A stretch of DNA of 64,000 nt from positions 420,957 through 484,956 of the forward strand of contig JACAAZ010000001.1 of NCBI GenBank assembly GCA_013376995.1, in the 5' to 3' direction. The position numbers and the translations under genes are program-made. The notes below the pieces were generated by a model. It was not told the DNA's origin and did no database searches. It saw only the letters and a program-made list of their open reading frames with translations. Below, piece after piece: positions 17,030 to 39,000 of this stretch (the first letter of the stretch is position 1; the number at the start of each line of letters is the position of its first letter). The DNA is from Bacteroidota bacterium (GTDB taxonomy: Bacteria; Bacteroidota; Bacteroidia; Bacteroidales; UBA4417).

Positions 17030-17039
17030 ATAAATATGG

Positions 17040-17101
17040 CAATTATGTAATATATCGACTGAATTATATAATATATGAGGGTTTCTGGTTAGGTACATTT
17101 G
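17040..17101 (+). promoter_or_regulatory. direct-repeat activator-type site and promoter (copy A)
   Basis: Half-site ATGTAA at 17045 and half-site ATATAA at 17066 start 21 bp apart, within CAATTATGTAAT and TGAATTATATAATA. Exactly 22 bp separate the second half-site from the -7 element TACATTTG (17094-17101). The ATG at 17128 follows 27 nt later. No -33 TTG is at the usual place; the second half-site covers that region. The same layout recurs at 17686, 18322 and 27123. Confidence 0.65.
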
Positions 17102-17127
17102 TATAAATCTTATTTATACAATACAAC

Positions 17128-17319
17128 ATGGCACGGTATTCAAAAAAGGCAAGAATCAAAATCGGAGAAGTTATGCGTGAGTTTAAGGATGGAACCTTAA
17201 AATCAGGTAAAAATGGATCTGGTGGTAAAGTCAAAAGCAGGAAACAGGCTATTGCAATTGGCATCAGTGAAGCCAGGGATTCCGGTTTAAAGGTTCCTGC
17301 TGAAGAATTAGCTAAGTAG
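17128..17319 (+). CDS. small basic DUF6496-like protein
   Basis: 63 residues, MARYSKKARIKIGEVM..., very rich in Lys and Arg. The C-terminal half (KSRKQAIAIGISEARDSGLKVP) matches the pattern of the DUF6496 family, small basic proteins of unknown function widely found next to stress genes. It has no membrane segment or signal. The basic charge could suit nucleic-acid binding, but this is speculation. It is preceded by copy A of the direct-repeat promoter motif. Confidence 0.85.
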   Translation: MARYSKKARIKIGEVMREFKDGTLKSGKNGSGGKVKSRKQAIAIGISEARDSGLKVPAEELAK

Positions 17320-17414
17320 GCAACTGTCAAATTCTATTTGTAATTATAAACGCTACTAGACAATCTTCTTTCACAACATTTTTTGTTGGCACACAATCCA
17401 TAAATAAAAATAAC

Positions 17415-17585
17415 ATGGAACCAAACTGGCTAATTATTATCATTGTCATGATCGTAATAATGGCAATTATTATCTTTTTCATCATTAGAAATCAAAAAGA
17501 TAAAGTAGCTCTGGAGAAAGATTTAATCAAAAAGGACGGATTATTGATACCGAAGGAAGAAGACAATGAAGTTGACAATACTTAG
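17415..17585 (+). CDS. small single-pass membrane protein (56 aa)
   Basis: A 57-codon frame, ATG at 17415 and TAG at 17585. Residues 6-24 are a continuous Ile/Val/Met/Phe membrane segment (LIIIIVMIVIMAIIIFFII), followed by a charged, Lys/Glu/Asp-rich cytoplasmic tail. The frame is followed 25 nt later by a strong intrinsic terminator, which supports it being transcribed. It lies 95 bp after the DUF6496-like gene and may share its promoter. No function can be assigned. Confidence 0.6.
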   Translation: MEPNWLIIIIVMIVIMAIIIFFIIRNQKDKVALEKDLIKKDGLLIPKEEDNEVDNT

Positions 17586-17609
17586 TCACTGTTTCTTTAA
17601 ATTAAAACG

Positions 17610-17650
17610 GAGAGCAAGACATGCATAGATGGCTTGCTCTCATTTTTTTT
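17610..17650 (+). terminator. intrinsic terminator
   Basis: GAGAGCAAG at 17610-17618 pairs with CTTGCTCTC at 17633-17641, followed by an uninterrupted T-run. It ends the DUF6496/small membrane protein unit. Confidence 0.9.
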
Positions 17651-17685
17651 GGATGCACTAAAGTTACCTCATAAATCTAATGTAG

Positions 17686-17747
17686 CAATCATGTAATTCA
17701 TAACCGGAATTGTATAATACTTATTGGTGTAAAGTGTGTGACTTTTA
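17686..17747 (+). promoter_or_regulatory. direct-repeat activator-type site and promoter (copy B)
   Basis: CAATCATGTAAT with half-site ATGTAA at 17691, and GGAATTGTATAATA with half-site GTATAA at 17712, again 21 bp apart. The octamer at the same 22-bp spacing is GACTTTTA (17740-17747), a degenerate -7 element. The ATG of the next gene is 29 nt downstream. Over a 34-bp alignment 25 positions equal copy A. Confidence 0.6.
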
Positions 17748-17775
17748 CGCAAATAAACCAATTTAATTAAAAACC

Positions 17776-18219
17776 ATGAAAATGAATAAAACGATCATCA
17801 TTCTCTTGCTTGCAATTGCAGGAAGCATAGGCATAGCAAGTGCACAATCACCGGCTGTAATGATAAGTGATGCTGCAGGATGGCACAAAATAAGTGAAAG
17901 AACAGTAGCATTTAAAACAGACCGCGATGAAATTTCGGTTATTGGCTCAGATAGGTTCTCAACTATTAAGTTTAAGGTGACGGAAGCTGCAATCGAGCTT
18001 ATTTCCCTTGAAATAGCATTTGAAAGTGGTGACAAGCAGGATGTGAAGATTAACCAGTCAATCAAATCACCAGGGGAAAGCCGCACAATTGATTTGAAAG
18101 GTGGTGCAGAGCGTAGCATTAAGAAAATTATTTTTGTTTACAAAACGCTTCCTAATAGTAAAGATGAACATGCCCGTGTAGAAATATGGGGATATAAATC
18201 AAATGCAGTTAAGAAGTAA
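17776..18219 (+). CDS. secreted DUF2541-like protein
   Basis: 147 residues. The signal peptide covers about residues 1-24 (KTIIILLLAIAGSIGIASAQ). The mature domain of about 120 residues is predicted all-beta. It ends in a pattern I associate with the YaaI/DUF2541 group: an ESGDKQDVKI strand, the central SRTIDLKGGAERSIKKI, and a final RVEIWG strand. No catalytic residues are apparent. The product is exported to the periplasm or outer surface. The promoter region holds copy B of the direct-repeat motif, linking it to the neighbouring stress-type genes. Family placement is from memory and only moderately sure. Confidence 0.75.
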   Translation: MKMNKTIIILLLAIAGSIGIASAQSPAVMISDAAGWHKISERTVAFKTDRDEISVIGSDRFSTIKFKVTEAAIELISLEIAFESGDKQDVKINQSIKSPGESRTIDLKGGAERSIKKIIFVYKTLPNSKDEHARVEIWGYKSNAVKK

Positions 18220-18235
18220 ATCAATATCAATTGAT

Positions 18236-18276
18236 ACATAGAGCCGTCCTGCCTGATTGCAGTGCGGCTTTTTGTT
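18236..18276 (+). terminator. possible weak terminator
   Basis: GAGCCG at 18241-18246 can pair with CGGCTT near 18266-18271, followed by TTTTG. The loop is long (about 20 nt), so this is a tentative call for the end of the secreted DUF2541-like gene. Confidence 0.4.
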
Positions 18277-18321
18277 TTACTTGAATGTTCTGCTGAAAAT
18301 GTATAGTATTATTTTAATGAT

Positions 18322-18382
18322 AATTATGTAATTTATTTTCAGAAATATGTAAGATGGATTAATTCAAATTCAATCAAATTTG
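18322..18382 (+). promoter_or_regulatory. direct-repeat activator-type site and promoter (copy C)
   Basis: ATGTAA at 18326 (within AATTATGTAATTTAT) and ATGTAA at 18347 are 21 bp apart. Exactly 22 bp later comes CAAATTTG (18375-18382), a near -7 element. Identity to copy A is 25 of 34 positions. The ATG at 18448 lies 66 nt downstream; a TTG at 18406 would give the 24-nt leader seen at the other copies. Confidence 0.6.
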
Positions 18383-18447
18383 TAAAATGTCAATCCTCGT
18401 TTAGGTTGACATTGATCAATTTGACAAAATCTTTAAAGCATTATAAT

Positions 18448-18696
18448 ATGCAACCACAAGAAAAACATCCGACAGAAAATGAAAATATTTCCGAATTGCC
18501 CAAAATGAAATCAGCTTGTGTATGCGGAGGAGATTCTCAATATAAAAGCAAGGACCAGCTTGAAGCTAGATATCAGTGCCCTATGCATTGTGAAGACAAT
18601 AAAACGTATAACCAGGAGGGCAAATGCCCGGTTTGTAATATGCAATTGGTTAAGGTTGATTTGGATATTCAAGGAGATAGATCAATCAACATGTAA
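18448..18696 (+). CDS. small heavy-metal-binding (HMBD-type) protein
   Basis: 82 residues from the ATG at 18448. An in-frame TTG at 18406 would add 14 residues and cannot be excluded. An N-terminal ACVCGG motif is followed by YQCPMHCEDNKTY and GKCPVCNMQLVKV. The latter is the heavy-metal-binding domain seen at the ends of copper P-type ATPases and CusB-type proteins (CPMHP...GxCPxCGMxL). It probably chelates copper or a similar soft metal in the cytoplasm, as there is no signal peptide. The promoter has copy C of the direct-repeat motif. Confidence 0.85.
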   Translation: MQPQEKHPTENENISELPKMKSACVCGGDSQYKSKDQLEARYQCPMHCEDNKTYNQEGKCPVCNMQLVKVDLDIQGDRSINM

Positions 18697-18937
18697 AGAA
18701 TAACCAAAACGATCATCAGGTTAGGAAGTATGAAATTATGCAGAATCGCAGGCTATAATTGGGGAAATGAAAGGGCATATTACCGGATATTTCAATTCAG
18801 GTATACGAATCGGTAAATATTTAAGATTGAGAAAAAATAATGCCTAAAAAAGAAACAAGCCTGGAGTAAAATCATAAACAACAACTGGTTCATTTAACTT
18901 TGAGGAATCACAGTTTACCATCAGAAAATCCGAATGA

Positions 18938-19561
18938 ATGAAAGATTTGAAAATTCCGGATAATGCTAGCGACTTTCCCATAGTATGTGTGGGTGGTTCA
19001 GCGGGTGGTCTTGATGCCTATATCCGTCTACTCCAAAATCTTCCTGATGATACTGGAGCAGCTATTGTTATTGTTAATCATTTGAGGACTGTTTCTACCC
19101 GGTTGCATGAAATTCTTCCGAATTACACTAAAATGCCTGTAGAATTGATCACTGAAAAACTTGATATTCAGCCAAACCATGTATTTATTATCCCGGAAAA
19201 GAGAGACTTGCATGTTCTTGATAACGAATTTCACCTGATGCCAATTTCAAAACCGAGGGGATGGCCGGATGTAATTACTGTTTTTATGCGTTCGCTGACT
19301 GAGAACTGGAATGGAAAACTAATCGCGGTAATCGTTTCCGGTTATGATGGTGATGGTGCTGATGCTCTTTGCTCCATAAAAGAAGTTGGTGGTATCACAA
19401 TGGCTCAGAAACCCGACACAGCCTCACAGCCAGACATGCCTGAAAGCACCATTGCAAGCGGGTGCATAGATTTTATTTTATCGCCGGAGGAGATAGCTAT
19501 CGAAATTAAACGAGTTGTACTGGCAGATTCAAAATTTGAAAATGAGGTTATTATCCAATGA
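18938..19561 (+). CDS. stand-alone CheB-type methylesterase domain protein
   Basis: 207 residues, covering only the CheB catalytic domain; no receiver domain is attached. The catalytic triad is visible: Ser21 in CVGGSAGG, His48 in VNHLR, and Asp138 in SGYDGDGADAL (equivalent of TGMGxDGAxG). CheB removes methyl groups from chemoreceptor glutamates. No cheR, cheA or receptor gene is nearby in this window. Such solitary CheB proteins occur in non-motile Bacteroidota, often near stress genes, with unknown substrates. It follows the metal-binding gene by 241 bp and is convergent with the methyltransferase at 19625. Confidence 0.9.
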   Translation: MKDLKIPDNASDFPIVCVGGSAGGLDAYIRLLQNLPDDTGAAIVIVNHLRTVSTRLHEILPNYTKMPVELITEKLDIQPNHVFIIPEKRDLHVLDNEFHLMPISKPRGWPDVITVFMRSLTENWNGKLIAVIVSGYDGDGADALCSIKEVGGITMAQKPDTASQPDMPESTIASGCIDFILSPEEIAIEIKRVVLADSKFENEVIIQ

Positions 19562-19624
19562 GAACGCTATTAATTTGTGGCTATAAAATTACCTGGCTGG
19601 TTCAAACGCTTTTCCCCACATAAC

Positions 19625-20446
19625 CTAACTCAAATCTTGTGAGTCCGGATAACCTATTAAGAAAGTAACATGCAACCCATATCTGCATTTCAATCGGCCA
19701 GTCTTCCAATAATATTTTTCGCTTTCGATTTCATTCGCAAACTGCAGCAATTCCTTCGGGCGATATAATCGGATTATGGAAATAATACCATCCCAAACCG
19801 TGCAAAAAGGTATTACCGGAAGGATATAAGTAAAGAATAACCTTGAAAACCTGAAAGGCCTGAATAAAGGGGTGAAAAAGAAAAACAAAAGCGGATGCAC
19901 GAAAAGGATGGCTAAAATAGCAAGAAAGGATTTATCTCCCCCATCAAATATCCCTATACCGGAATTAGTTGAAACAGCATTTTGAATTATTGCTTTTGCA
20001 TCTTTTTTTTTGAAATGATGAAACCCGGAAAAAATTGTTCTGAACCCGGTCAACGACCCAGGAACATCTCTAACATCAATCGAATCACTGAGATATGAAA
20101 TAGCTCCATTTGTCCTCGCTGCAATAAATTCATATGCCTTTGTATTTGGAAATTTATCCGTTAGGGTGATGTTTACATTAACTCCTGACTGATCATGCAA
20201 TTCTTGCTGAATTTGTTCAATAGCCCCGCCTCCACCCGAACATAAATCAACGATGTTTTCTGCTCCTGAATGATTCATTCCTTCCATAATTAAAGGAATT
20301 ATTGGGCGATAGAAATCGAGCCTAGTAATCAGGTAACGCAAATAGTCTGTCATACTTTCCCTGATAATATTGGGAAACCAATCCAGATCTTCAAATTCGA
20401 AAAGAAAGTTACGATAATTCAGAATTGCTTTCCGTGAGGCCATCAA
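19625..20446 (-). CDS. SAM-dependent methyltransferase with membrane segment
   Basis: 273 residues. The class I methyltransferase motif I is VDLCSGGGGAIEQI near residues 88-101, and the following acidic strand (NITLTDKFPN) is motif II. After the Rossmann part comes a hydrophobic stretch (LAILAILFVHPLLFFFFTPLF) that suggests membrane association and a lipophilic substrate. It is the last gene of a five-gene minus-strand cluster and overlaps the upstream monooxygenase by 38 bp, which implies translational coupling. A plausible role is O- or C-methylation of the lipid-linked phenol made by the cluster (inference). Confidence 0.85.
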   Translation of the reverse strand: MMASRKAILNYRNFLFEFEDLDWFPNIIRESMTDYLRYLITRLDFYRPIIPLIMEGMNHSGAENIVDLCSGGGGAIEQIQQELHDQSGVNVNITLTDKFPNTKAYEFIAARTNGAISYLSDSIDVRDVPGSLTGFRTIFSGFHHFKKKDAKAIIQNAVSTNSGIGIFDGGDKSFLAILAILFVHPLLFFFFTPLFRPFRFSRLFFTYILPVIPFCTVWDGIISIIRLYRPKELLQFANEIESEKYYWKTGRLKCRYGLHVTFLIGYPDSQDLS

Positions 20447-22043
20447 CTTTTGGAATTGCTATTAAATACAGGTTTAAATAATTGTGAAGAGACTGAGATT
20501 CCATACTTACTGAATGGAGGGCAATATGCATATCGGGCCTTATAAGCAGAAACCCGGACATTGAAATTCCAAGTTTATGGTAAACATCTTTTGTTTCGGG
20601 AAGTTTAGGGATCAAAATCACATTCAGCTTAAATTGATCAGCAAGTTTCCGGATACTGTCAGGCAAGGCATGATCAAGAACAATCAGATTGAAAAATAGT
20701 TGGTTCAGTATTTTATGCGTATTGGTGATTTCTCCCTTCAACGAAAACACAACATAAGGCAGGCTTTCTCCTTTTCCAGGAGCTCGAAGCAAAAACGACC
20801 CTTCTATTTCAGCAAGGGATAGAATGCTCTCAGGATAGTGAATATCTAACTGGGAAATGGATCTGAAAAAATAATGACGAAATAATTTTTGTTTTTCAAT
20901 AAAAGGGAATAACACCACGAAAAAGAACTTCAAAACATACTTGCGGAGAATCTTGACTATTCTGTTTGTGCTGGTTACCAATTTGAAAACGATGTCAGCA
21001 TAGCGCGCAAAACCTTTAGTTATACCTGATCGCTCGTCACTGTATGTTTTTAGCAATTCCGGATTTGCATTATGGTTTAGTACCAAGGCAAGCTTCCAGG
21101 CCAGGTTAAATGCATCCTGTAAACCGGTATTCATTCCTTGTGCTCCCACCGGGGTATTGACATGTGCAGCATCACCGGCTAAAAAGCAGTTTCCAAGTTG
21201 AATTGAACCGGAGTATTTTTGATGGGAATGAGAAACTGAAAACCATTCGTTGCTTTCCGGACTAAAATTTACATTCGTCCATCGAGGAAGATTCTTTTCA
21301 ACTTCTTCTGATTTAACAGTTTGCATTCTTTCCATTTCCTCCGGCAGAGAGCCGTCTATCCTCCACCTTGAGTTTTTCAAAGGAAAGAATCCGGTAACTG
21401 TTGAATCGGAGAATACGAAATTTATTTCCCCGGGAATAAAATCCGTTTTTGCTTTGCAATCCATAATAAAAATAGGCTTCGGATAGGTTATTCCTGAAAA
21501 AGGAATATTCAAAAGACCCCTGATTGTACTATTTCCACCATCGGCAGCAACCAGGTATTTGGAAGTAATTGAATGTTCCGCCCCATCAATACCAGCTACT
21601 ATGGATATTGTATTTCCAGAATCCTGGATTAAACTTAAAAATTGAGTCTCTCTTTCAATGGTATGCCCATGGGCTTCCAGAAAACGGGTAAGCAACTTTT
21701 CTGTCTTTGATTGTTCAAGCATGAGCAGGAATGGGAATTGAGAAAGGCTTCCTCCTATCTCCTTTATGGATGTTGAAACAATGATTTTCCCGTTAAATAA
21801 AATATTCACCTTATCCGCTATGATTCCTTCCTTAAGCGCCTCCCCTGCCAGGCCTATTGATTCGAGTATTTCAAGGCTGCGTGCCTGTAGAATCAATGCA
21901 CCTGAATTATTGGAAGGAGATCTTTTCTTATCGATAATTCGAAATGATATCCCATGGATTGCCAACTGGCAAGCCATCATCAGTCCGGTGGGCCCTGCCC
22001 CAGTAATAAGTACATCAACTTTGGAATCGCGTAACTGCTTCAT
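20409..22043 (-). CDS. FAD-dependent aromatic monooxygenase (PheA/TfdB-UbiH type)
   Basis: 544 residues. N-terminal dinucleotide-binding GAGPTG motif at about residues 15-20, and the second FAD motif FLAGDAAHVNTPVGAQGMN. The C-terminal region of about 170 residues (ending near SMESQSLHNYLNLYL) corresponds to the thioredoxin-like third domain of phenol-hydroxylase-type enzymes. This class hydroxylates activated aromatic rings using NAD(P)H and O2. It overlaps the methyltransferase genes on both sides (38 and 29 bp), so it is co-translated with them. In the cluster it probably adds a hydroxyl group to a polyketide-derived phenol, possibly leading to a quinone (inference). Confidence 0.93.
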   Translation of the reverse strand: MKQLRDSKVDVLITGAGPTGLMMACQLAIHGISFRIIDKKRSPSNNSGALILQARSLEILESIGLAGEALKEGIIADKVNILFNGKIIVSTSIKEIGGSLSQFPFLLMLEQSKTEKLLTRFLEAHGHTIERETQFLSLIQDSGNTISIVAGIDGAEHSITSKYLVAADGGNSTIRGLLNIPFSGITYPKPIFIMDCKAKTDFIPGEINFVFSDSTVTGFFPLKNSRWRIDGSLPEEMERMQTVKSEEVEKNLPRWTNVNFSPESNEWFSVSHSHQKYSGSIQLGNCFLAGDAAHVNTPVGAQGMNTGLQDAFNLAWKLALVLNHNANPELLKTYSDERSGITKGFARYADIVFKLVTSTNRIVKILRKYVLKFFFVVLFPFIEKQKLFRHYFFRSISQLDIHYPESILSLAEIEGSFLLRAPGKGESLPYVVFSLKGEITNTHKILNQLFFNLIVLDHALPDSIRKLADQFKLNVILIPKLPETKDVYHKLGISMSGFLLIRPDMHIALHSVSMESQSLHNYLNLYLIAIPKVDGLTESNSELS

Positions 22044-22752
22044 AATTTTCTAAATTCCCAACTATTATTAGCCGGAATAGCCTTTTCCTGTGTATTGAGT
22101 AGTTGATAATTCCTGCTTTATCAAGCAGCATAATAAGTTCCGAAGATTTGAAGCTACGCAGCACGGAAACTGGGCCATCATTTTTCGATAACTCTGTGCC
22201 ATTGAATAAACGTGTAAAAAGCCATGCGCTGTAATATGCAATCCAATGCCGGTATAAATCGTTGATAATGAATCCAACATTAAGTTTCTGCCGGAAATAC
22301 AGGAAAAGATCTGATAGTTGGGCATCATTCAAATGATGACAGAATAATGAAGCATGGACAATATCAATGCCTGGAGTTTTATTCAGATAATCCTGGTAAT
22401 CAGCGACTACACCTTTTATTTCCGGGTAATCCGAACAATGCTTCTCCAAATATTCAATGGCTCCCGGATTCATATCCACCCCTGTAAGCCTTAAACCATA
22501 CTTATTTATCCTGGCCCAATCGGCTATATATTTCAATGCATCACCGCTGCCGCAACCAAGGTCAACAATATGATATAGTTTGTCATGATCTTTAATTAAC
22601 TGTTTAATTCCAAATAGCGAAAGACTATGTCCGCCAGAAATCCGGTTCAGGATGTCCAACTCACGGAGGTTCTCATTGAGCAATCCGGAATCAATATTAA
22701 CCTCGTCGAGTAACTCTTTTTCATTGGAGCGGAATTTGAACCTGGAGTGCAT
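22015..22752 (-). CDS. SAM-dependent methyltransferase
   Basis: 245 residues. Motif I is HIVDLGCGSGDALKYI (about residues 61-76) and motif II is LTGVDMNPGAIEYL, a clear class I fold. The second half contains FCHHLND and FIINDLYRHWIAYYSAWL. I associate this wording with methyltransferases that accompany type III polyketide synthase genes in Bacteroidota (from memory). It starts 15 bp after the PKS stop and overlaps the monooxygenase start by 29 bp, so it is an integral cluster member. The substrate is probably the phenolic polyketide. Confidence 0.9.
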   Translation of the reverse strand: MHSRFKFRSNEKELLDEVNIDSGLLNENLRELDILNRISGGHSLSLFGIKQLIKDHDKLYHIVDLGCGSGDALKYIADWARINKYGLRLTGVDMNPGAIEYLEKHCSDYPEIKGVVADYQDYLNKTPGIDIVHASLFCHHLNDAQLSDLFLYFRQKLNVGFIINDLYRHWIAYYSAWLFTRLFNGTELSKNDGPVSVLRSFKSSELIMLLDKAGIINYSIHRKRLFRLIIVGNLENYEAVTRFQS

Positions 22753-22767
22753 CTTTGAAATTCTGTT

Positions 22768-23961
22768 TTATAGGATTGATACCTCTTCAGGCTTATTGCT
22801 CAAATGGTTTATAGTATTCTCTTTACTTACATACTCCTCTAGTTTCGGTTTCCCAAGCGCATTAGCTTCAAATACCAGTAACGCAGTTTCAATACTTAAT
22901 CCCGGGCCAAATCCGATTGAGAAAATAGATTCTCCCTCCTTTTGTACTGAATCCATAATTTCACGCAACACAAACAGTATTGTAGGGGATGACATATTTC
23001 CATAGTCAGCCAGGACCTTATAGGAAAATTGCATTTCGGTATCACCCAGTTGCAATTCCTGCCTGACTGAATCCAGTATCTTTTTCCCGCCGGGATGTAT
23101 GGCCCATTTATCAATAGCTGATTGAGTAATATTGAACTTTTCACCTGCTTTGTGAAGGATATCTTTCACCTCACTGCCAATGAATTCAGGTATCCCTGTA
23201 TTAAGGACCATCTCGAAATTTACCGGTGTAATATTCCATCCCATTAATTGCCTGCCCTTGTAAAGCAGCAAAGAGAAGAATCCTTTGATGCAAAGTCCTG
23301 CAAGATGATTCTTTTTTGCGGCACTATCGGATACAACCAACACAGCTGCTGCTCCGTCCCCGAAAATTGTATTTGCCAACAGATTATCGCTATTATCGAC
23401 TGCATGGAAATGCAATGTGCAAAGTTCCACACAGACGATTAGCACCTTCGCATTCTCATCTGTTTGGGTAATCATATTGGCAAGATTTAATGCCGGGAAA
23501 GCTGCATTGCAACCCATAAAATTTATGGCCGTATGAAATATATCTTCCGGCAGTTCCAGCTCTTCAATCAATGCGGCCCCAATGCCCGGAGCATATATCC
23601 CTGTGCAGGTAACCGTTATAAGGTGCGTTATTTTGAAATCAGAAAGGCTGGTATTCAATCTTTGAAATGCATTATTCATAGCCTTGATTGCAAGTGATGA
23701 TGCATTTTCTTTAAATACCTTCAACCTTTCTTCAACACCCGGTACCGGTAGATTAACATCAAAAAAACTCTTTCCTGATTGCTTATTTCCAAAATCCGGG
23801 ACAACCGAATACCGGGTATTGATACCACTGTTATGGAATAAAATATTCAATTTTCGGGATGCAGTATCGTCATGATATGCATTTCGCATGAATTCCAGTA
23901 TGGTGCTTTGTCTGGCACCATGTTGAGGCACTGCTGTTCCTATGGAAATAATTGTACTCAT
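22768..23961 (-). CDS. type III polyketide synthase (chalcone/stilbene synthase family)
   Basis: 397 residues, normal for the family. The Cys-His-Asn triad is visible: Cys151 (NFMGCNAAFPAL), His289 (WAIHPGGKK) and Asn322 (YGNMSSPTI), with spacing like that of plant chalcone synthase. TCTGIYAPGI is the conserved entrance to the active site. The enzyme condenses malonyl-CoA units on an acyl-CoA starter and cyclises them to a resorcinol, phloroglucinol or pyrone. Bacterial relatives often use long fatty acyl starters. The starter here cannot be read from sequence. It lies 2 bp after the UbiA gene and heads the PKS-MT-monooxygenase-MT series. Confidence 0.95.
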   Translation of the reverse strand: MSTIISIGTAVPQHGARQSTILEFMRNAYHDDTASRKLNILFHNSGINTRYSVVPDFGNKQSGKSFFDVNLPVPGVEERLKVFKENASSLAIKAMNNAFQRLNTSLSDFKITHLITVTCTGIYAPGIGAALIEELELPEDIFHTAINFMGCNAAFPALNLANMITQTDENAKVLIVCVELCTLHFHAVDNSDNLLANTIFGDGAAAVLVVSDSAAKKNHLAGLCIKGFFSLLLYKGRQLMGWNITPVNFEMVLNTGIPEFIGSEVKDILHKAGEKFNITQSAIDKWAIHPGGKKILDSVRQELQLGDTEMQFSYKVLADYGNMSSPTILFVLREIMDSVQKEGESIFSIGFGPGLSIETALLVFEANALGKPKLEEYVSKENTINHLSNKPEEVSIL

Positions 23962-23963
23962 GG

Positions 23964-24947
23964 CTAAAACCAGGTGTAGTGATTGTTCAGGATGAGAACC
24001 AGGAAGAACAGGTTCATAAAGATTGAGGTCAGGAGGTTCATCTTCATGGTATTCTCAAAATTTGCATTGTCGGTATTCTTCCGAACCTTTTTAAACCAGA
24101 CTGACAGGTCAATTATCACAGGCAACATCAGTATGATGAACAAGACTAATGCTACCTGCTGATGTTTCAGATTAAAATAATAGTAGAGAAAAACGGTAGC
24201 AATTGAGAATAAGATAGCCGAAAAAACAAAGGTTCCGTTATATCCCAGTTTATAACTGATGCTGATCACCCCGTCTCTTTTATCTGCTTCATGTTGGTAT
24301 ATCTGGGTAAGAGGATAAATGCTCCCGATAAAGAAACTGGCCACGGACATGCAAATTATGTTATTCATTGTGAACAAGTTGACAAAAGAATAGTGAGAAA
24401 TTGCTGAATAGGCCATTAAGTAGACAAAAGCACCCTGGAACAGGAATACAGTCAAAAACCCGATGACTGCATATTTTTTCAATCTCACATTCCTATAGCT
24501 GTAAGCCCTTGAGACCAGGATAAAAATAAAAATGAAAGATGAGAACATCGGTGACACCAGGAATCCTGCAGCTACCGCAACCATATCCATCAGTAACGTT
24601 ACACGGAATAAATTACGCGATACTTTGGGCGGATGCTTTAATCCACCAATGCTCGTAGTATCACGATCCTGGTAACTATTATACCCATTGCTTGAAGGAA
24701 ATACAAACAGGTGCAAAATCACAAAAGCAATTACAGTTGTATCCCAATGGACATTAGCTGCCTGGCTTAATGCAAACAAGAAAACGGGCATGAGGAAGAA
24801 TGAAAACGGCAACCTAAGGTGCTTTATCGTACTTCTGTCGAACCAGGAAAGGAAGAGTATCTTACTCATTTCATGTGATTTCAAAAAGCCGTTATTATTT
24901 GCCTCATTCCTTCTGATCCTGAAGGCAGAGAATAGTAAGTCGCACAT
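23964..24947 (-). CDS. UbiA-family prenyltransferase
   Basis: 327 residues with 8-9 hydrophobic segments. The first Asp-rich motif is NSYQDRD (Asn90, Asp94, Asp96) and the second is ADKRDGVISISYKLG, both characteristic of UbiA-type membrane prenyltransferases that bind Mg-prenyl diphosphate. The start may be the ATG at 24947 or the Met at 24869 (MSKILFLSW); the second gives a more typical N-terminus. It is placed directly before the type III PKS with a 2-bp gap, so an aromatic acceptor made by that enzyme is likely (inference). A quinone-biosynthesis role outside the cluster is the main alternative. Confidence 0.88.
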   Translation of the reverse strand: MCDLLFSAFRIRRNEANNNGFLKSHEMSKILFLSWFDRSTIKHLRLPFSFFLMPVFLFALSQAANVHWDTTVIAFVILHLFVFPSSNGYNSYQDRDTTSIGGLKHPPKVSRNLFRVTLLMDMVAVAAGFLVSPMFSSFIFIFILVSRAYSYRNVRLKKYAVIGFLTVFLFQGAFVYLMAYSAISHYSFVNLFTMNNIICMSVASFFIGSIYPLTQIYQHEADKRDGVISISYKLGYNGTFVFSAILFSIATVFLYYYFNLKHQQVALVLFIILMLPVIIDLSVWFKKVRKNTDNANFENTMKMNLLTSIFMNLFFLVLILNNHYTWF

Positions 24948-25041
24948 TTCCAGCAGTCAACATTGCTAAGGCTCTACAACTGCTAAGTTTACCAATAAAA
25001 CAATTAAGAATCAGGAAGGTTTTGATTTTCAGCCACTCTGA

Positions 25042-25956
25042 TCACTTTGCTGCAAATTTTATCAATTCTTCATTAAATTTTTGAGTTTCTTCCAGGAACA
25101 GGCTATGCCCACTCTCCTCAAATGCTATGAGATGTGAACCGGTAATTCCGGCTTTCATTTGTTCAGCCAGGTCGAATGAGCATATCTTGTCTTTTTTGCC
25201 ATGCATAATCAGGGTGGGAATTTTAATTTCAGCCAGGTCATTTCTCAGGTCTGTATCACGCAAGGCGACTAAACATTGCGCCATGGCATAGGATGAAGAA
25301 CTGATGTTAATCCCGTTTAACCAGCCTGCAATTCCTTCATTCAATGTGGATTCGTCCGCTGAGAATATTTTCCTGAAATCGGACAGCAGTTTTGGCCTAT
25401 CCCTATTGTTCAGTTTGATCAGGTCATCAACGGCTTTTGTGGGAAGGTTGTAGGGAAAATCCTGACGTTGTGTCCATATTGGAGCAGCAGCACCAAACAA
25501 TGCAAGTTTTGAAATCAGGCTTCCTTTATCGTTTGAAGCTACCCGAATAGCAATGGCTCCTCCCATAGAGAATCCTCCCAGGACGGCATTTTCAATTTTC
25601 AGCTGATTTATGATTTTGCGTATATCGGCTGCGTGCGTGTCATAATCATACCTTCCATAAGGTTTATCCGATTTGCCAAAACCCCTGAGTGTGATTCCAA
25701 TAACGCGGAATTTATTATTTATCAAATCATTATACTGATATTCATACATTTCATCGCTAAGCGGCCAACCGGGAATAAGCACAATTGGCCTGCCCTCTCC
25801 AGCATCGGTAATATGCAGCCTGACATTAGGTTCTACTTCTATATATTCGGCCCTGGCAATTGTTACCGGGGTAGTCTGTTCCACAAGAGTATTCATAGTT
25901 TTTTGCATTTGACCATTTATTGTTTTAGAGATAATTACCAGTTTCCCACCCTTCAT
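25042..25956 (-). CDS. alpha/beta-fold hydrolase
   Basis: 304 residues from the ATG at 25956; a start at the Met of MNTLVEQ (about residue 21) is equally plausible. The catalytic triad is visible: nucleophile Ser in GGFSMGGAI, Asp in GKKDKICSF and His in EESGHSLF, with oxyanion motif PGWPLSD. It resembles the non-heme chloroperoxidase/3-oxoadipate enol-lactonase group of esterases. It is 94 bp upstream of the UbiA gene and 6 bp downstream of the iron-permease gene on the same strand. It could therefore belong to either unit; a role in the PKS pathway is possible but unproven. Confidence 0.88.
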   Translation of the reverse strand: MKGGKLVIISKTINGQMQKTMNTLVEQTTPVTIARAEYIEVEPNVRLHITDAGEGRPIVLIPGWPLSDEMYEYQYNDLINNKFRVIGITLRGFGKSDKPYGRYDYDTHAADIRKIINQLKIENAVLGGFSMGGAIAIRVASNDKGSLISKLALFGAAAPIWTQRQDFPYNLPTKAVDDLIKLNNRDRPKLLSDFRKIFSADESTLNEGIAGWLNGINISSSSYAMAQCLVALRDTDLRNDLAEIKIPTLIMHGKKDKICSFDLAEQMKAGITGSHLIAFEESGHSLFLEETQKFNEELIKFAAK

Positions 25957-25962
25957 GTGTTC

Positions 25963-26424
25963 TCAGGTCTTATTTTGTATATCTTCTTTAATTTGATCAG
26001 CCAGTTCTGAATACTCTTTTGAAAGTTCATTCAGTTCATGTTCTGTCTTATTCTCCAGGTTAATAACAGCATTACTGGCCGGCTCATGGGAGGCAACCAG
26101 CTCATTCACTTTTAGATGCAATGAAGCTGAAAACCTGTTAAATGATTTCTGAATGATAAACAAACTCAAAAAAGCGATGCCAAGCAGCAGATCTGCAATG
26201 CATGCATGAATATCCTGGCGATAAAATTGCTTGTTGGTGAGCCAGAATATGACAACACAAAAAGCAATTATAAACGTGATGGAATTACCCAGGACAGCAA
26301 TGGCTATTGAGACCAGTTTCTCGAAAACATTTTCTGTTTGCCTGTATATGTTTTTCATAATAGACCAATAAGAAGGAATTCCAAATCCGGATATATCCAA
26401 ATCTGAGAAATCCTTCCCATTCAA
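25963..26424 (-). CDS. low-affinity iron permease-family membrane protein
   Basis: 153 residues; the Met at residue 23 (MKNIYRQTENVF) is an alternative start. Two membrane segments (LVSIAIAVLGNSITFIIAF and LLLGIAFLSLFII) are followed by QKSFNRFSASLHLKVNELV. That motif is typical of the Iron_permease (PF04120) family, where QKxQNRDxxALHxKLDEL is usual. The C-terminus is a charged helical tail. Bacterial members are common but iron transport has been shown mainly in fungi, so the function is uncertain. It lies 10 bp after bacterioferritin, which fits an iron- or stress-related unit. Confidence 0.85.
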   Translation of the reverse strand: MNGKDFSDLDISGFGIPSYWSIMKNIYRQTENVFEKLVSIAIAVLGNSITFIIAFCVVIFWLTNKQFYRQDIHACIADLLLGIAFLSLFIIQKSFNRFSASLHLKVNELVASHEPASNAVINLENKTEHELNELSKEYSELADQIKEDIQNKT

Positions 26425-26434
26425 TTCAAATGAT

Positions 26435-26914
26435 TTAGCCGGCTATAACTTCCGTTTGGTTAACCAGGTAATTCTCGATGCCCATCTGTGAAATCTGGGC
26501 CCGCTGTATCTCAGCCCAATCCACATGACCTTCTTCCATTTTGAGAATTTTGGTCAGGAGGTCAACACTTCCCTGGTCATCAATCTCCCGGGCCAGTTTA
26601 ATGGCCCTGTTATATGCATGAATTGCATCCAGTTCATCTCCGTTATCATTGCTGATCATTTCCAATACAGTTTTACCGATCTTCATGGGATTAAGTTTGG
26701 AAACCGTTGGTGCACCTTCAAAAAAGAGTATCCTTTCAATAAGCCATTCTGCATGATGCATTTCATCCATAGCTTGCTTGCGGATAGCCATATGAAGCTT
26801 AGCATAACCCCAGTTTTCGCACATTTCAGAATGTACCATATACTGGTTTATAGCTGTGAGTTCATCAGCCAAAAGCGAATTCAAAGTTGAAATCAGGTCT
26901 TTATTTCCTTTCAT
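26435..26914 (-). CDS. bfr: bacterioferritin
   Basis: 159 residues from the ATG at 26914, matching the E. coli start MKGD and length (158); an ATG at 26941 would add nine residues. Diiron ligands are in ADELTAINQY and DEMHHAEW for the first helix pair, and LDAIHAYNRAI and EEGHVDW for the second. The Met of DEMHHAE corresponds to heme-binding Met52. It stores iron as ferric mineral in a 24-mer cage in the cytoplasm. First gene of a run with the iron-permease and alpha/beta-hydrolase genes. A degraded relative of the direct-repeat promoter motif lies about 97 bp upstream on this strand. Confidence 0.95.
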   Translation of the reverse strand: MKGNKDLISTLNSLLADELTAINQYMVHSEMCENWGYAKLHMAIRKQAMDEMHHAEWLIERILFFEGAPTVSKLNPMKIGKTVLEMISNDNGDELDAIHAYNRAIKLAREIDDQGSVDLLTKILKMEEGHVDWAEIQRAQISQMGIENYLVNQTEVIAG

Positions 26915-27009
26915 AGTCTTGACTTTATATGTTAGTTCCATTTATGATTTTCGGATCATCAAAAGTGATAATAAGCAACCTAGATAGCTTTACAGAATCT
27001 TTGGAAAGA
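26915..27009. other. leader of bacterioferritin
   Basis: AT-rich region between the regulatory motif and the bfr start. The nearest -7-like octamer on the minus strand is TATCTAGG at 26979-26986, a poor match. Nothing else is recognised. Confidence 0.3.
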
Positions 27010-27041
27010 GTTATATAATTCACATGTTTCTAACCATTATT
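27010..27041 (-). promoter_or_regulatory. degraded copy (E) of the direct-repeat motif before bfr
   Basis: On the minus strand the second half is TGAATTATATAA, identical over 12 bases to copy A (17060-17071). At the position of the first half-site (21 bp earlier) the sequence is AATAATGGTT, matching AATTATGTAA at 6 of 10 positions. The -7 spacing is not kept, so this copy is uncertain. Confidence 0.35.
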
Positions 27042-27122
27042 CAAATAAAATCTATCCTCAGCAATCCCAGACTTATTCATGTTGAAATCACTTCATGCTA
27101 TCCTAGGGTAATAACATGAGTG

Positions 27123-27183
27123 AATCATGTAAGAATCATAATTAATTATGTAACAACACACTGTATAACCCAAACTACCTTTA
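27123..27183 (+). promoter_or_regulatory. direct-repeat activator-type site and promoter (copy D)
   Basis: AATCATGTAA with half-site at 27127 and AATTATGTAA with half-site at 27148, again 21 bp apart. TACCTTTA at 27176-27183 is the -7-like element, 22 bp after the second half-site, as at the other copies. The ATG at 27223 lies 40 nt downstream. Confidence 0.6.
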
Positions 27184-33041: not shown

Positions 33042-36000
33042 TTATGGAAGGATTACTTTCTTGATTATTTTGTCCTTGCCTGAATATAAGTTCACAATGT
33101 AGACCCCTTTGCAAAGCATGTCTGTTGCAAGCGAATGAAGATTTCCTTCCTGTAATGCACTTGCATATACTACCCTGCCCATCATATCGGTTATTCTCAC
33201 ATAATCTTTCTCATTCGTTTCACCTTCTATTATTATTCGATTATCACGGGAATAAATCGATATGGACTGAATTGGCGCAGATTCAACCGAATTAACGTCC
33301 TTCAGGTGAATGATGAACCTGGCAGGATCATCAATTGCATTGGATGAAAATGCATAGACAGTTTGATTATCCAGTTTCTGAAAAACATTCAGCTTTTTAT
33401 CTTCCAGGATTACATTTCCCGGGAAACTTTCCAAACCCTTAATCTCCAAAATATAATCTTCAGACGTATTCTTTATGAAATCAAAAGGTAACTTGGTATC
33501 CTCAACAATTCCAGGAATCATGTTTACTGAAAGTTTTTGATTAACGGCAAGTGAATAAAATTTTGGGCCAAAACCTCCCAAATAGGTACCATCCAGTAAC
33601 GGGTCAAAACCATTGGTACTCTGGGGATTGACTACGATATAACTCTCTTTTCCTGAGTGATTGTCAGCGGCCAATACTGTAAGTTTTAACACTGTAGGTT
33701 CCGAACTCTTGTACCATGGATCTAAGCTAAATGTACGCGAAGATGCTGGAATTGTAAGAGATGCATTGTTTTCAGTAGCCTGCACCATGAATCCATTCAT
33801 AGCTGGGATTGTATCACCGTTTAGAAGCGGGGAATAATCCATAAGGCTTTCATTCCAAATAGCGCAATTTGGATTGATCTGAGAACTGGTCCACCCATTG
33901 TACCATCTGAGAGCACATGGATATGGATTGCCTAATAAGTGCCAGCTGTTGTTTTGACCACTCGAAACAGTAAGACCTGAAATAGAAACATCATTAACAT
34001 TCAACGCACCCTTAAATTCCTTAGTGGAGGCTTGTTCATATTCAACCAGGTATCCTTTCCCAACCTGGAAATTAGTGCTGTTATTATTTACAGAACTGAA
34101 TGTTGGGCTTGATCCATCCTTGAAGTTTACCCATAAATTATCCGACTCGGACCAGGCATAGAAATCATATTCATTTCCAGCTCCAATTGTGACAAATCCT
34201 CCATCATTTATGGATTGTTCTGCGACCGGGGATGAAAGAAAATGCCAGCCATCGTCCCAGGTTCCCCAGTCAGCTGCAGCAATATATCTTTCAATAGTAG
34301 CATTAACACCTCCTGTGCTATTTGTCAGAGATCCGCTTCCTGTCCCATCTGATTTGATAACCAATCCAGATACTCCGGAACTGTTGACTATAGTTCCCGA
34401 AACAGTAAGGTTAACCAAGGGTACGACTGTTAGCTTGCTTCCATTTGTTATACTTAAATTATTATTCACGGAGACAGTTTTCTCCGCCCTCACCCCGTCA
34501 GAAGATGTATTCGAAATAATAAGATTATAGAAATTGATTGAAGTTGCATCATCATCTAAATCACCATCAACGCCATCAAGCTCCTGGACCAAAGACCCAT
34601 TAAGAGTTACTGTACTGCTTGCTGTGGCATTGATAGTACCATCACATAGGATATCACCTGAGATGGTATGGCTATGTGCCCCGGTAGTGAAAGATGCGCC
34701 TGACTCTACCGTAAAATTGCCATGGATAGATAGGTCAGTACCTGCTGAGCAGTTTGTAGTTCCTGTAACTATCATATTGCCGTAAATATCCAGTGCACCC
34801 GATGGAATAGATTTGGTTCCGCTACCACTGAGAACTAGATTGTAATAACCTGTAGTTAACCCATTGGGCATAATTATTACCTGGTCGGCACCATTGAACT
34901 CAATAGTATTGGGTAACATAGCAGCACGTAGAATCCCATTATTAGTCAAAGTTCCGGCAATTCTCATAACATTTCCAGTTTCAGGTGTTAATGAAGCTCC
35001 TGAGGCAATTGTAAGATTATAGAAATTTGTCGGATCCGACATTGTGGCATTTGCATTTGTAAATATTATAGTGCTGGTCCCTGCATCGAATGTTCCCAGG
35101 TTCAGCCAGGCACCTATACTTCCGGTAATTGTAAGTGAAGTGCCGGTACCACCTTCAAGTATTGCACCATTATTAATGGTTAAGGTTTTGATTGAAGTTG
35201 TAGAGGGTAATACCGGGTCGTGGGCTGTACTTGCCGCATCCGGAATAACTACATCACTGGTAGAGGTCGGGACATTGCCGCCTGACCAGTTATTTGGATC
35301 TGCCCAATCTGAACTTGGAGTCCCCTGCCATGTAAAATCAGGAGTTTCTGATTTTGAAAGGGTCCAAACATGGGTATTCCAGGTCGGATCAAAATAGGTC
35401 ACCTTACGATTTGATATCCCTACCCAGTTATCAATGATACTGCTTGTAGCTTTTCCATGTTCTTCCACTTTCGGAACACTTGCATGGTAATCCCAAATAA
35501 CGAGGTCGGACTCTGGATTGGTATTGAGTTCAGTATCCAGGTAATGAAGGTTGAAAGTAACAAGCGTTGCATCGGAACCCCCGATTCTTTTTATATCATA
35601 ATAACGCTGAGCAGCACTCGTTTTCCAGGAGGGTGAATTTCCGATGGAAATATTGATGTTCATTTCATCAGGCATCACGCCTCCGGACGAAAATGTAAAT
35701 GTAGTAAACTGGCTGCCAAATGAATACGGAGTATTAGCCACGAAACTAGTCCTTTTAACGATTCCAGTAACATCCCCAATTCCAGATGTCACTGAATTGG
35801 GACCCATTGTAAGAGTATTGGCGCCCATATCCAGACTGCCTTGAGTCGGCGATGGATTGGCAACTGCTAATGAAAGTATTCCTAGTAGAGTAATATCCCC
35901 ATTAGAAACTGCACCAGTGGAACGGCTGATGGTAAGATTGCCTAATGAATTTGAGGTGAATGATCCTGATGGAAGGACCAATTGAGTGCCAGAACCACCT

Positions 36001-39000
36001 AAATTCAAAGTTGAAGTTTCATCTGCAGTCAATGTACCTGAAGTTCTAACCAAAGTCCCGTTAACAGTCAAGGTATGATTACCGATCACAAGAGATCCAT
36101 TAGAAAGTGTCAAAGTTCCAGTAGAAGATACATTTCCATCCAGGCTAATACCATTGGCACGGTTCAGAGTTAGATTATTTAAGGAAACAGTTGGTAGGGC
36201 AATGCTGGCACCAGAACCGCCGACAACTATATTAGAATTGCTTCCACCGGTAAAAGAACCGTTGGAGACGGTAAGCAAGCCATTAATTGTTAGCGTATTG
36301 GAACCAATGGAAAGGGCTCCGTTAGCCAGCCAGAGGGTTCCAGTCACTGTTAAGTTCCCGTTCATTTTAAGGCCGCTGCTGTTGTAGAGGGTAAGGTTAT
36401 TAATTGTGTTGCTTAAAAAAGCATTGAGAGGCAAGTTAACTATTGTACTTCCATTAAACTTTAGGGTGGAATTTGTTGCAGTTGCATCTATCTGTGCCCC
36501 GGATGTAAAATTCAGATTGCCATTAACTGTAAGCTGATGCCCATTCAGGACAAATTTGTAAGCCGATTGGGCATTGGTCAAATCATTAATGATACGGTCC
36601 TGATCCAACACACAATTGTTCGAAGGGGTCGTAGCGAATAATATGTTTGCTCCTGACGGAGGTACAACTCCTCCAACCCAGTTGGCTGCTGTAGAAAAAT
36701 CACTGTTGGATGTTCCCTGCCAGGTATATGTATTCGATTCTAATGCCCCGGGTTTTGGCGGATTTCCGCGTGTCACAGCATTGTAATCAGCAGTAATACC
36801 GGAGATTACTGTACCATTCAGAAGTGTATTGATAAGATAATCATTAGGAGTAGTGCCTCCCGGGTTGGCAAATCCCGGGTTACTGCTTACGCTATTTGCA
36901 TCCTGTCCTGTTGCGGATTGCCAGGAGGCTAGAGTTGTTTTATCAGAACCAATATAACCCAGAACTCCCCCTGAGCCCGGTGCATAATAATCATTGTAAT
37001 TAATTGTAAGATTAGAATTACCTGAAAGGCGGATTCCGTAATGCTTACCAGTTGTTCCGCCAGAACGGTTATTATATAGGATATTGTCCCGGTAATCCCT
37101 GTTATTGGAATTCGAATTATCAAACATCCCGTAGGTGGAGGCTGTTGGTCCACTTACACTACCTCCAATATAAACTGTGTTGAACCATACATTATTTGTG
37201 CCTCCTTCAGTACCACTATCGTAAATACCGCAAATATTGCATCCAGCTGATACCCCTGAACCCAGGGTAACTATATTATTGAATACAGATGAACTTCCTC
37301 CATAGATCCTCAATCCAACCAAAATTGCTGGTGTTGAGATAGGGGCTGTAGATGCTGTCGTAAATCCATAAATGAAATTATTTGATATGGTATTAGTTCC
37401 TCCTGCACCACCTGTATAACATAATCCTATAACACTTGAAGGCCTGGTACCGGTATAGGTGCATGACAAGGAATATATTTTATTTCCGGATATAGTTTGA
37501 CCGGCATTTGAACTCCTTTGCGTAATCCCGATAACAGCTGCATTATAACCAGGATCATTGCTCGGGCTGCTGGTTGATAAATTCCAGACCGAATTATTTA
37601 GGATGGTATTTACTCCTCCGGTAGTATAAATCCCTGTCACTCCACCATTAGTTGCAGTGGAATATAAATATGCATTGAACAGATTAGCGACCATATTATT
37701 TGCGATGGTTACATTACCTGTGCTGTTACTGAGAATGCCGTATAAAGTTTGAGCTGTCCCGTTCGTTGATGAAGAGGACGTTTGTAAGCTGTTGGGAGTA
37801 GTTGTACTACCTATAATATTATTGCTGATTGTGGTTGTTCCCGTCACAGTTGATTTGTAAATGGCATTGAGTGAATGAGAATTAGATGAAGACCCAATAG
37901 CTGTAATTGAACCAATCGAATTATTGGAAATGGTCGTATTTCCAGTACTGATAACATATATCCCATAAGATGTAGCGAAAGATGTGCTGTTTGTGAGCAC
38001 AATAGATCCCGTTCCGGTTGCTTCTCCAATAGTATTCCCTGTTTCAGTTCCAATATTTGCATTTCCAGAATTCACATCGATTCCCATCCATGGAATATTG
38101 TTGCTGCTACTTACATTAAAATTTGAAATCAGGTTGTTTTGTAAGGAACATGCATTGGAAGAAGCCGCAACATCCAGATGAATCCCATAGAATCGAGTGG
38201 ATTGCGATGAATTAATGTTCCATGCACTGCCACCGCATAGTTGTGAGCTACCTCCGATACAGTTATTGCTGACAAGGAAATTTAATCCAGAAGTACTGTT
38301 AATTCGAATACAAAAGTAGGATGCCCCTGATGTTGGGACAAAAGAAGTCGTTTCATAGAAACTGTTGCCAGTGATATTCCAACCGGAAGCACATGTGTAA
38401 ATATATATACCATAGGTTGTCGCATCAGGCCTAAAGAAATCGTAGAAGTAACTATTCGAAATGATATTATTATCATTTTCATGGCCTGTTGAACCGTACG
38501 AGTAAATAACATAATATGGTCGGTCTGTGACATTAAGACCTGTCAGGTAGCAGTTGTCAATTGTATTGCCGTCGTTACCATTGCCGGAGGATGAACTTGA
38601 AAACAACAGAACACCACTGTAAACGCCAGTTGCACCACCCTTAATAGTACAGAATTTTATGATATTATTTTCCGCAGAATTGATATAACGGATTGTAGAC
38701 GTATTCGATGTTCCTGAAGTATTTGTATTTATTATACTTAAGTCTTTTGTACTTCCGGAGGCATTGACCCTCCCATCAATCGTTACATTGTCAGCACCGT
38801 TCAGGTCAATCAGCGGTAATGCCAGATTACCACTAATGCTAAAACCTGTTCCTGTTGGATAAATCGTAACAGACGAATAGCTGGCACTCCCACTCCCGCT
38901 TGCATTTAACTTAGCTGTTGCCGCTTCTGTTGTACTTGAAACAAGTGTGAGTGTGATATTACCAGTAATGCTTCCCGCATTTATAGCATCGAAAGCAGCT

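Follow-up and report, generated by a model that had tools for sequence, protein, structure and literature searches.

The window analysed here, the whole of a 64,000-nt stretch of contig JACAAZ010000001.1 (positions 420,957-484,956) from a Bacteroidota genome of 5.05 Mb, carries a promoter motif in front of genes for a DUF6496 protein, a secreted DUF2541-like protein, a small protein with a heavy-metal-binding domain (HMBD), a bacterioferritin/Dps-like protein and a small membrane protein (Table 1). The initial annotation had described four copies, sites A to D, as two half-sites 21 bp apart with a gap of 22 bp between the second and a -7-like octamer, and these elements stand exactly where it placed them. 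The motif is real and is larger than that description: in full it reads TGTGAAtnATGTAA-N11-AATTrTGTAAc-N22-TAnnTTTG and includes, at a fixed place upstream of the first half-site, a TGTGAA box that had been overlooked.

Table 1. Motif copies in the window and the genes around them. Scores are from a matrix built on sites of other genomes and from the host's own matrix, in which these five sites are included.
Feature	Position	Strand	Details	Score, other genomes	Score, host
Site A	17034-17101	+	box TGGCAAT; ATGTAA 17045-17050; ATATAA 17066-17071; -7 element TACATTTG 17094-17101	33.0	47.4
Target of A, DUF6496 protein, 63 residues	17128-17319	+	PF20106, E 7.7e-27		
Small protein after the DUF6496 gene	17415-17585	+	DUF6249, E 6.7e-4, below cut-off		
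Site B	17680-17747	+	box TAGCAAT; ATGTAA 17691; GTATAA 17712; -7 element GACTTTTA 17740-17747	40.2	54.5
Target of B, secreted DUF2541-like protein, 147 residues	17776-18219	+	PF10807, E 1.9e-5, below curated cut-off		
Site C	18315-18382	+	box TGATAAT; ATGTAA 18326; ATGTAA 18347; -7 element CAAATTTG 18375-18382	25.9	43.2
Target of C, small HMBD protein, 82 residues	18448-18696	+	PF19335 HMBD, E 5.6e-12		
Alpha/beta hydrolase, after the permease-like gene	25042-25956	-			
Low-affinity iron permease-like gene, after the bacterioferritin gene	25963-26424	-	PF04120, E 4e-17		
Target of E, bacterioferritin/Dps-like protein	26435-26941	-	PF00210, E 6e-32		
Site E (bacterioferritin copy)	26960-27027	-	box TGTGAAT; half-sites ATATAA and CTGTAA; -7 element CACTTTTG 26960-26967	47.1	51.6
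Site D	27116-27183	+	box AGTGAAT; ATGTAA 27127; ATGTAA 27148; -7 element TACCTTTA 27176-27183	37.5	50.6
Target of D, small membrane protein, 111 residues	27223-27558	+	no Pfam match		

Site counts were judged throughout against the reversed pattern or the reversed sequence. The exact full pattern occurs five times in the host genome and never in reverse; with up to two mismatches it occurs 38 times against 15, and with the upstream box included in the pattern there are 20 sites against one control match, site B being the 21st. The pair of half-sites alone, at free spacing, is barely above its control (49 versus 42), so the signal is carried by the upstream box and the -7 element. This box is exact in 14 of the 19 matches with no or one mismatch, and a single one of the 19, L007 (ATACGG), is without it; at sites A to D it is weaker (Table 1). 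A CRP-like reading of TGTGA was dropped because the motif, as judged from its logo by eye, has no inverted half-site.

The roughly 21 host sites are unevenly distributed, with five in the window, two on contig C41, one on C2 and 13 between 122 and 174 kb of C23. The cluster of about 50 kb on C23 encodes a YtxH protein, an MlaE permease, an OmpA protein, an NADH:flavin oxidoreductase and two CsbD-like proteins, of which one scores below the curated cut-off. Also encoded there are an extracytoplasmic function (ECF)-type sigma factor, sensors of the PAS-kinase and CheB-CheR types, and four AraC-type paralogues with 173-202 residues as called (genes were called with a simple hexamer caller written for the analysis, not a published gene finder). 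From C23:122685 down to 118760, a site is followed on the same strand by a CsbD gene, an AraC-type gene, a PAS hybrid kinase and a receiver protein, a row that presumably forms an operon. Stress-type genes do stand behind the sites, as the initial annotation had it, but it named four of them, and the regulon extends far beyond these.

Copies of the motif before orthologous genes, which had been proposed as a check, are indeed found. In the sister species G160 a syntenic locus (L168) keeps the gene order DUF6496, small gene, DUF2541-like, HMBD, CheB, with protein identities of 79%, 48%, 86%, 66% and, over the 43 CheB residues in reach, 79%. Sites A, B and C are all in place there and share 28, 25 and 28 of 30 core bases with the window, as compared to 22, 24 and 21 of the 38 bases outside the core. 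The DUF6496 gene of G158 (76% identical) likewise has its site, with 28 of 30 core bases identical versus 17 of 38 others. Beyond the genes of the window, a 132-residue secreted-type gene (MLAIAGFLTSSYAQTL...) follows a site in L170, L173 and L177 (G160, G158 and G154; orthology judged by eye), and these sites carry TAGGAA or TGGGAA instead of TGTGAA.

The AraC-type proteins of the C23 cluster provided an entry into other genomes. A scan of the contigs of other genomes yielded 571 confirmed matches to the regulator, and the best 80 define a set of loci totalling 1.28 Mb, whose record titles include Saprospiraceae, Paludibacter, Emticicia, Arcicella, Niastella, Flavobacterium and Aquimarina; one locus, L104 (Candidatus Theseobacter, Candidatus Auribacterota), comes from outside the Bacteroidota. 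With a 40-bp matrix that has no -7 part, 145 sites were matched around these 80 relatives, as opposed to one in reverse, and 59 of the 80 loci were hit. The initial annotation had named an equal frequency inside genes or at random positions as grounds for abandoning the motif. Instead, 139 of the 145 matches lie outside called genes and 6 inside, where 83% of random positions fall, and 137 of 143 are at most 400 bp upstream of a start on the same strand (21% for random positions). The regulator gene itself is preceded by 24 matches in 23 loci, 22 of them within 186 bp.

The spacing of the elements is equally constrained. Relative to the 145 matches, TTTG starts at +54 in 84 cases and at +53 in 20, and every other offset between 30 and 79 has four or fewer. 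Pairs of intergenic TGTAA, counted without any matrix over spacings of 8-44 bp, number 101 at 21 bp in the 59 matched loci and at most eight at other spacings; even the 21 loci without a matrix match have 17 such pairs at 21 bp and no more than three elsewhere. AraC/XylS activators have operators of direct repeats about 21 bp apart next to the promoter, and the sites conform to this layout, with the -7 element at a fixed distance. In two loci the leader between the site and the called gene hides a small gene (L033:6897-7190 and L036:6162-6475); the products, both recognized by eye, are a DUF5670-like protein of 51 residues and a homologue of the 83-residue protein of L168:305-556.

A matrix derived from the 145 sites can be turned back on the window, a test that is independent in sequence and not in design, since those sites were first collected with the matrix of the host genome. 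All five window copies score at least 25.9, while no other place in the window exceeds 2.6, and scores in the reversed window go no higher than -0.6. The copy before the bacterioferritin gene had been regarded as degenerate. It is not, because it has the top window score with this matrix and the second-best with the host matrix, and its TGTGAAT box is intact.

Sites and regulator also go together across genomes, in samples of 16 genomes from the family (one genus), 149 from the order and 296 from the phylum, with tests that ignore kinship among genomes. Within the family there are 0 to 36 sites per genome and one reversed match in all; a regulator above 240 bits occurs in all six genomes with at least 12 sites and in none of the ten others. 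The order sample, searched with a slightly longer pattern, has 242 sites in 38 genomes versus nine control matches. A regulator of at least 250 bits is present in 30 of these genomes, which contain 214 of the 242 sites; at least one site occurs in 27 of the 30 versus 11 of the 119 others (Fisher test, 1e-17), and three or more in 20 of the 30 versus 2 of the 119. In the three genomes that have the regulator and no pattern match, the matrix picks out a site next to the regulator gene, and TTTG follows it where expected. For the phylum the numbers are 89 sites in 28 genomes versus two control matches, with sites in 19 of 36 genomes that have a close regulator versus 9 of 260 others (Fisher test, 8e-14), and with a regulator relative at E<=1e-25 in 26 of the 28 genomes with sites versus 116 of the 268 without. 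Among the 72 sites of this sample outside the host, 14 are within 5 kb of a listed regulator (0.31 expected) and nine within 1 kb (0.06 expected), counting listed regulators only.

On this evidence we consider it highly likely that the sites are operators of AraC-type activators of about 186 residues with an HMA-like N-terminus, and that the activator turns on its own gene together with a stress-protection regulon. Co-occurrence might in principle arise in another way, with some other activator of clustered stress loci reading the sites and the AraC-type genes being passengers and targets. The kinases and the receiver protein located in the cluster would suit such an arrangement, as would G046, a genome with seven sites and no detected regulator. 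On the other hand, the number of sites declines with similarity to the regulator, from the 214 in the 30 order genomes at 250 bits or more to three in the 17 genomes at 200-250 bits, and sites stand directly upstream of the regulator gene in 23 of the 80 loci. The 21-bp spacing is, in addition, that of AraC-type motifs, direct repeats averaging 21 bp apart having been published for those of the hybrid two-component systems (HTCS) of Bacteroides (PMC3878776). We therefore regard a different activator as improbable.

The initial annotation had assigned the repeats to a dimer of a LytTR-type response regulator. Part of that proposal stands, namely an activator-type promoter with repeats two helical turns apart, the second of them at -33, in front of stress genes. 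LytTR proteins do bind direct repeats about two turns apart, and LytTR genes are present in the host, one of them 2.3 kb from a C41 site. However, all 16 family genomes have them, in 1-17 copies that bear no relation to site numbers, and the C23 cluster, with its 13 sites, contains none of the 14 listed of the 15 in the host. Neither the 80 loci nor C23 gave a match at E<=1e-3 to a LytTR DNA-binding-domain query, although with one query this is a weak test; a full-length query found receiver-type stretches in 16 of the 80 loci and one in C23. Presence, number and position of the sites are instead matched by those of AraC-family proteins. The assignment to LytTR is very probably mistaken, and binding by such a dimer is a very slim prospect. 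The two types also differ in domain, LytTR (PF04397) as opposed to HTH_18 here, their likeness being the direct repeats about two turns apart.

The sigma factor of the C23 cluster suggests a further reading, in which an alternative sigma factor of ECF type recognizes the sites, and a protein with Sigma70_r2/r4 domains is indeed encoded inside the cluster (C23:146702-147199). Yet a 21-bp direct repeat extending from about -33 to -68 is no sigma-factor footprint. The -7 element, moreover, fits the housekeeping promoters of Bacteroides, which are described as having TAnnTTTG at -7 and TTTG at -33; the description adds that no -33 motif was found for Flavobacterium johnsoniae (PMC7366714). We give recognition by an ECF factor hardly any credence.

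The favoured regulators, the four C23 paralogues of about 186 residues, all match HTH_18 (PF12833) above the curated cut-off (E 1.3e-13 to 5.4e-20), and a Pfam scan matched the helix-turn-helix (HTH) part in them and not HMA. Eight of eight Protein Data Bank sequence matches fall in the HTH part, in proteins that we take to belong to the AraC-type family. An AlphaFold model of 186 residues (pLDDT 87), built from 37 of the 80 regulator proteins, consists of a beta-alpha-beta-beta-alpha-beta head followed by a helical tail. In Foldseek comparisons the tail resembles AraC, MarA, AdpA and YesN (E from 9e-5), while the N-terminal 65 residues, which form the head, resemble Atx1, GolB and other copper chaperones (E 0.04-0.12, template-modelling scores by target 0.63-0.70), weak matches that point to a ferredoxin-like, HMA-like fold in the predicted structure. 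The resemblance to copper chaperones is one of predicted fold: here the domain is fused to a DNA-binding domain, and where the HMA metal site is M-x-C-x-x-C, the regulators mostly have M-V-S-x-R-C, with one Cys lost. Neither is the protein HTCS-like, as it consists of about 186 residues with HMA-like and HTH parts only and is without the single-chain layout of periplasmic sensor, kinase, receiver and AraC HTH.

Several observations weigh against the assignment of the sites to HMA-AraC proteins. The metal motif CxxC is mostly SxxC, Ser replacing the first Cys in at least 90% of 37 aligned proteins; the second Cys is invariant among them, and CxxC is retained in L087, L077 and L080-L082. Any of the four C23 paralogues may be the one that acts. 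The loci behind the evidence on position, -7 element and spacing were picked by the regulator, and the seed matrix was derived from 19 hand-picked host-genome sites, chosen from the matches with up to two mismatches to the exclusion of L007 and of all two-mismatch matches except L024. Some genomes depart from the overall trend. G046 is 94% complete, and its seven sites are accompanied by no regulator relative at E<=1e-6; G152 (five sites) and G156 (eight sites, 64% complete) are without a close regulator, and two of the 28 phylum genomes with a site (G207 and G354) are without a relative at E<=1e-25. G107, which together with G046 makes up the two order genomes that have three or more sites and no regulator of at least 250 bits, has 12 sites; its close regulator is represented only by a 66-residue N-terminal piece, located 55 bp after a site and 117 bp before the contig end, which is too near for a whole gene. 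Conversely, at three mismatches no site appears in 17 of the 36 phylum genomes that have a close regulator, which means that either the motif drifts or the regulon has been lost, and that the motif is not constant throughout the phylum. Finally, co-occurrence alone could mirror the gain and loss of one gene cluster, against which it counts that eight of the roughly 21 host sites lie outside the C23 cluster.

G158 belongs among these exceptions too, having seven sites and only a regulator of a second subfamily (162 bits). That subfamily (MKLYLKFD..., 162-165 bits), which is without the Cys motif, was seen in L078, L084, L085 and L086 (G158, G154, G160 and G150). Given that in G158 it is found alone with seven sites on seven contigs, its target may be the same motif or one closely akin to it.

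How such an activator might work can be outlined from the sequence. A dimer or two monomers would occupy the two half-sites, 21 bp apart on the same face of the helix, the distal one (TGTGAAtnATGTAA) being the better conserved. AraC-type proteins place two HTH motifs into neighbouring major grooves at each half-site, and TGTGAA and TGTAA start nine bases apart, so the distal half-site fits binding of this kind. The proximal half-site (AATTrTGTAAc) overlaps the place of the -33 element and would help to position RNA polymerase, and its location at the usual place of the -33 TTTG is as expected for an activator that touches the polymerase. RNA polymerase with the housekeeping sigma factor would thereby be set on the TAnnTTTG -7 element. 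Binding and activation by the HMA-AraC protein are thus predicted to induce its own gene along with those for CsbD, YtxH, ferritin/Dps, envelope and outer-membrane proteins, small membrane proteins and sensor kinases. The trigger would presumably be a stress, with either the HMA-like domain or the kinases of the cluster as its sensor.

The genes behind the sites of other genomes bear out a shared target set. A Pfam tally covered 100 of 137 downstream genes, after 24 regulator hits had been set aside and 13 genes of more than 600 residues dropped, and the families given here are from the first 25 of the 51 listed. Ice-binding-like proteins (PF11999) are the commonest class (19 of the 100; L091, L100, L112 and others), followed by CsbD (nine), cupin (six), DUF5670 (five) and two sorts of outer-membrane barrel (five and four), with two each of ferritin, YtxH and OmpA and one each of MlaE, BON, YceI and DUF6600. 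The prevalence of ice-binding-like proteins hints at surface or secreted products within the regulon. CsbD, YtxH, ferritin and other families of this set have stress-protective roles. By local comparison, both CsbD proteins of the host and its YtxH, OmpA, MlaE and site D proteins have counterparts among the targets of other genomes; for the site D protein, homologues follow sites in L108 (two), L134 and L139. The target set is shared across species, as expected of a general stress regulon. None of these 100 targets matches the DUF6496, DUF2541-like, HMBD or bacterioferritin protein that the window encodes.

As to the remaining genes of the window, the bacterioferritin, permease-like and hydrolase genes presumably form one operon. 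Downstream of this group on the same strand, positions 19625-24947 encode, in a row, a type III polyketide synthase (chalcone synthase-like), a UbiA prenyltransferase, a FAD-binding monooxygenase-like protein, a methyltransferase and one protein without a Pfam match, possibly a pigment or quinone-like pathway, into which transcription from site E may read through. The minus strand of the window also has two very large open frames, at 880-9210 (2776 residues) and 33042-39107 (2021 residues).

The system envisaged here resembles several known ones in part. With AraC/XylS activators at operators of the I1-I2 type, the arrangement known from AraC, it shares a two-HTH C-terminal domain, 21-bp direct repeats and a proximal half-site at -35/-33; those activators and the HTCS have a sugar-binding or kinase-receiver part and serve sugar catabolism, whereas here an HMA-like head is combined with stress genes. 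With the SigB, RpoS and EcfG regulons it shares the target families CsbD, YtxH, Dps/ferritin, BON and YceI. These regulons depend on an alternative sigma factor, in contrast to the predicted activator and housekeeping-type -7 element described here, and induction by stress is putative in the present case. To our knowledge no general stress regulator has been described for the Bacteroidota, although few phyla are commoner in soil, water and guts; a search confined to the open-access literature found none, nor anything on the present regulon or on HMA-AraC regulators. Many members of the phylum very probably have an AraC-family stress regulon that is undescribed in the literature searched, a close regulator being present in 30 of the 149 order genomes and 36 of the 296 phylum genomes sampled. 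It is an attractive, if tentative, idea, to which we give slightly less than even weight, that HMA-AraC proteins are the long-missing master regulators of the general stress response in Bacteroidota, a counterpart of SigB, RpoS and EcfG that would use an activator and a housekeeping promoter, with a reshaped copper-chaperone domain as sensor. The defined operator, regulator family, autoregulatory site and target list make this question directly testable. They also offer roles for families that had been unassigned, among them DUF6496, DUF2541-like, DUF5670 and the small membrane protein of site D, and the matrix can be used by annotators for a large part of the phylum.

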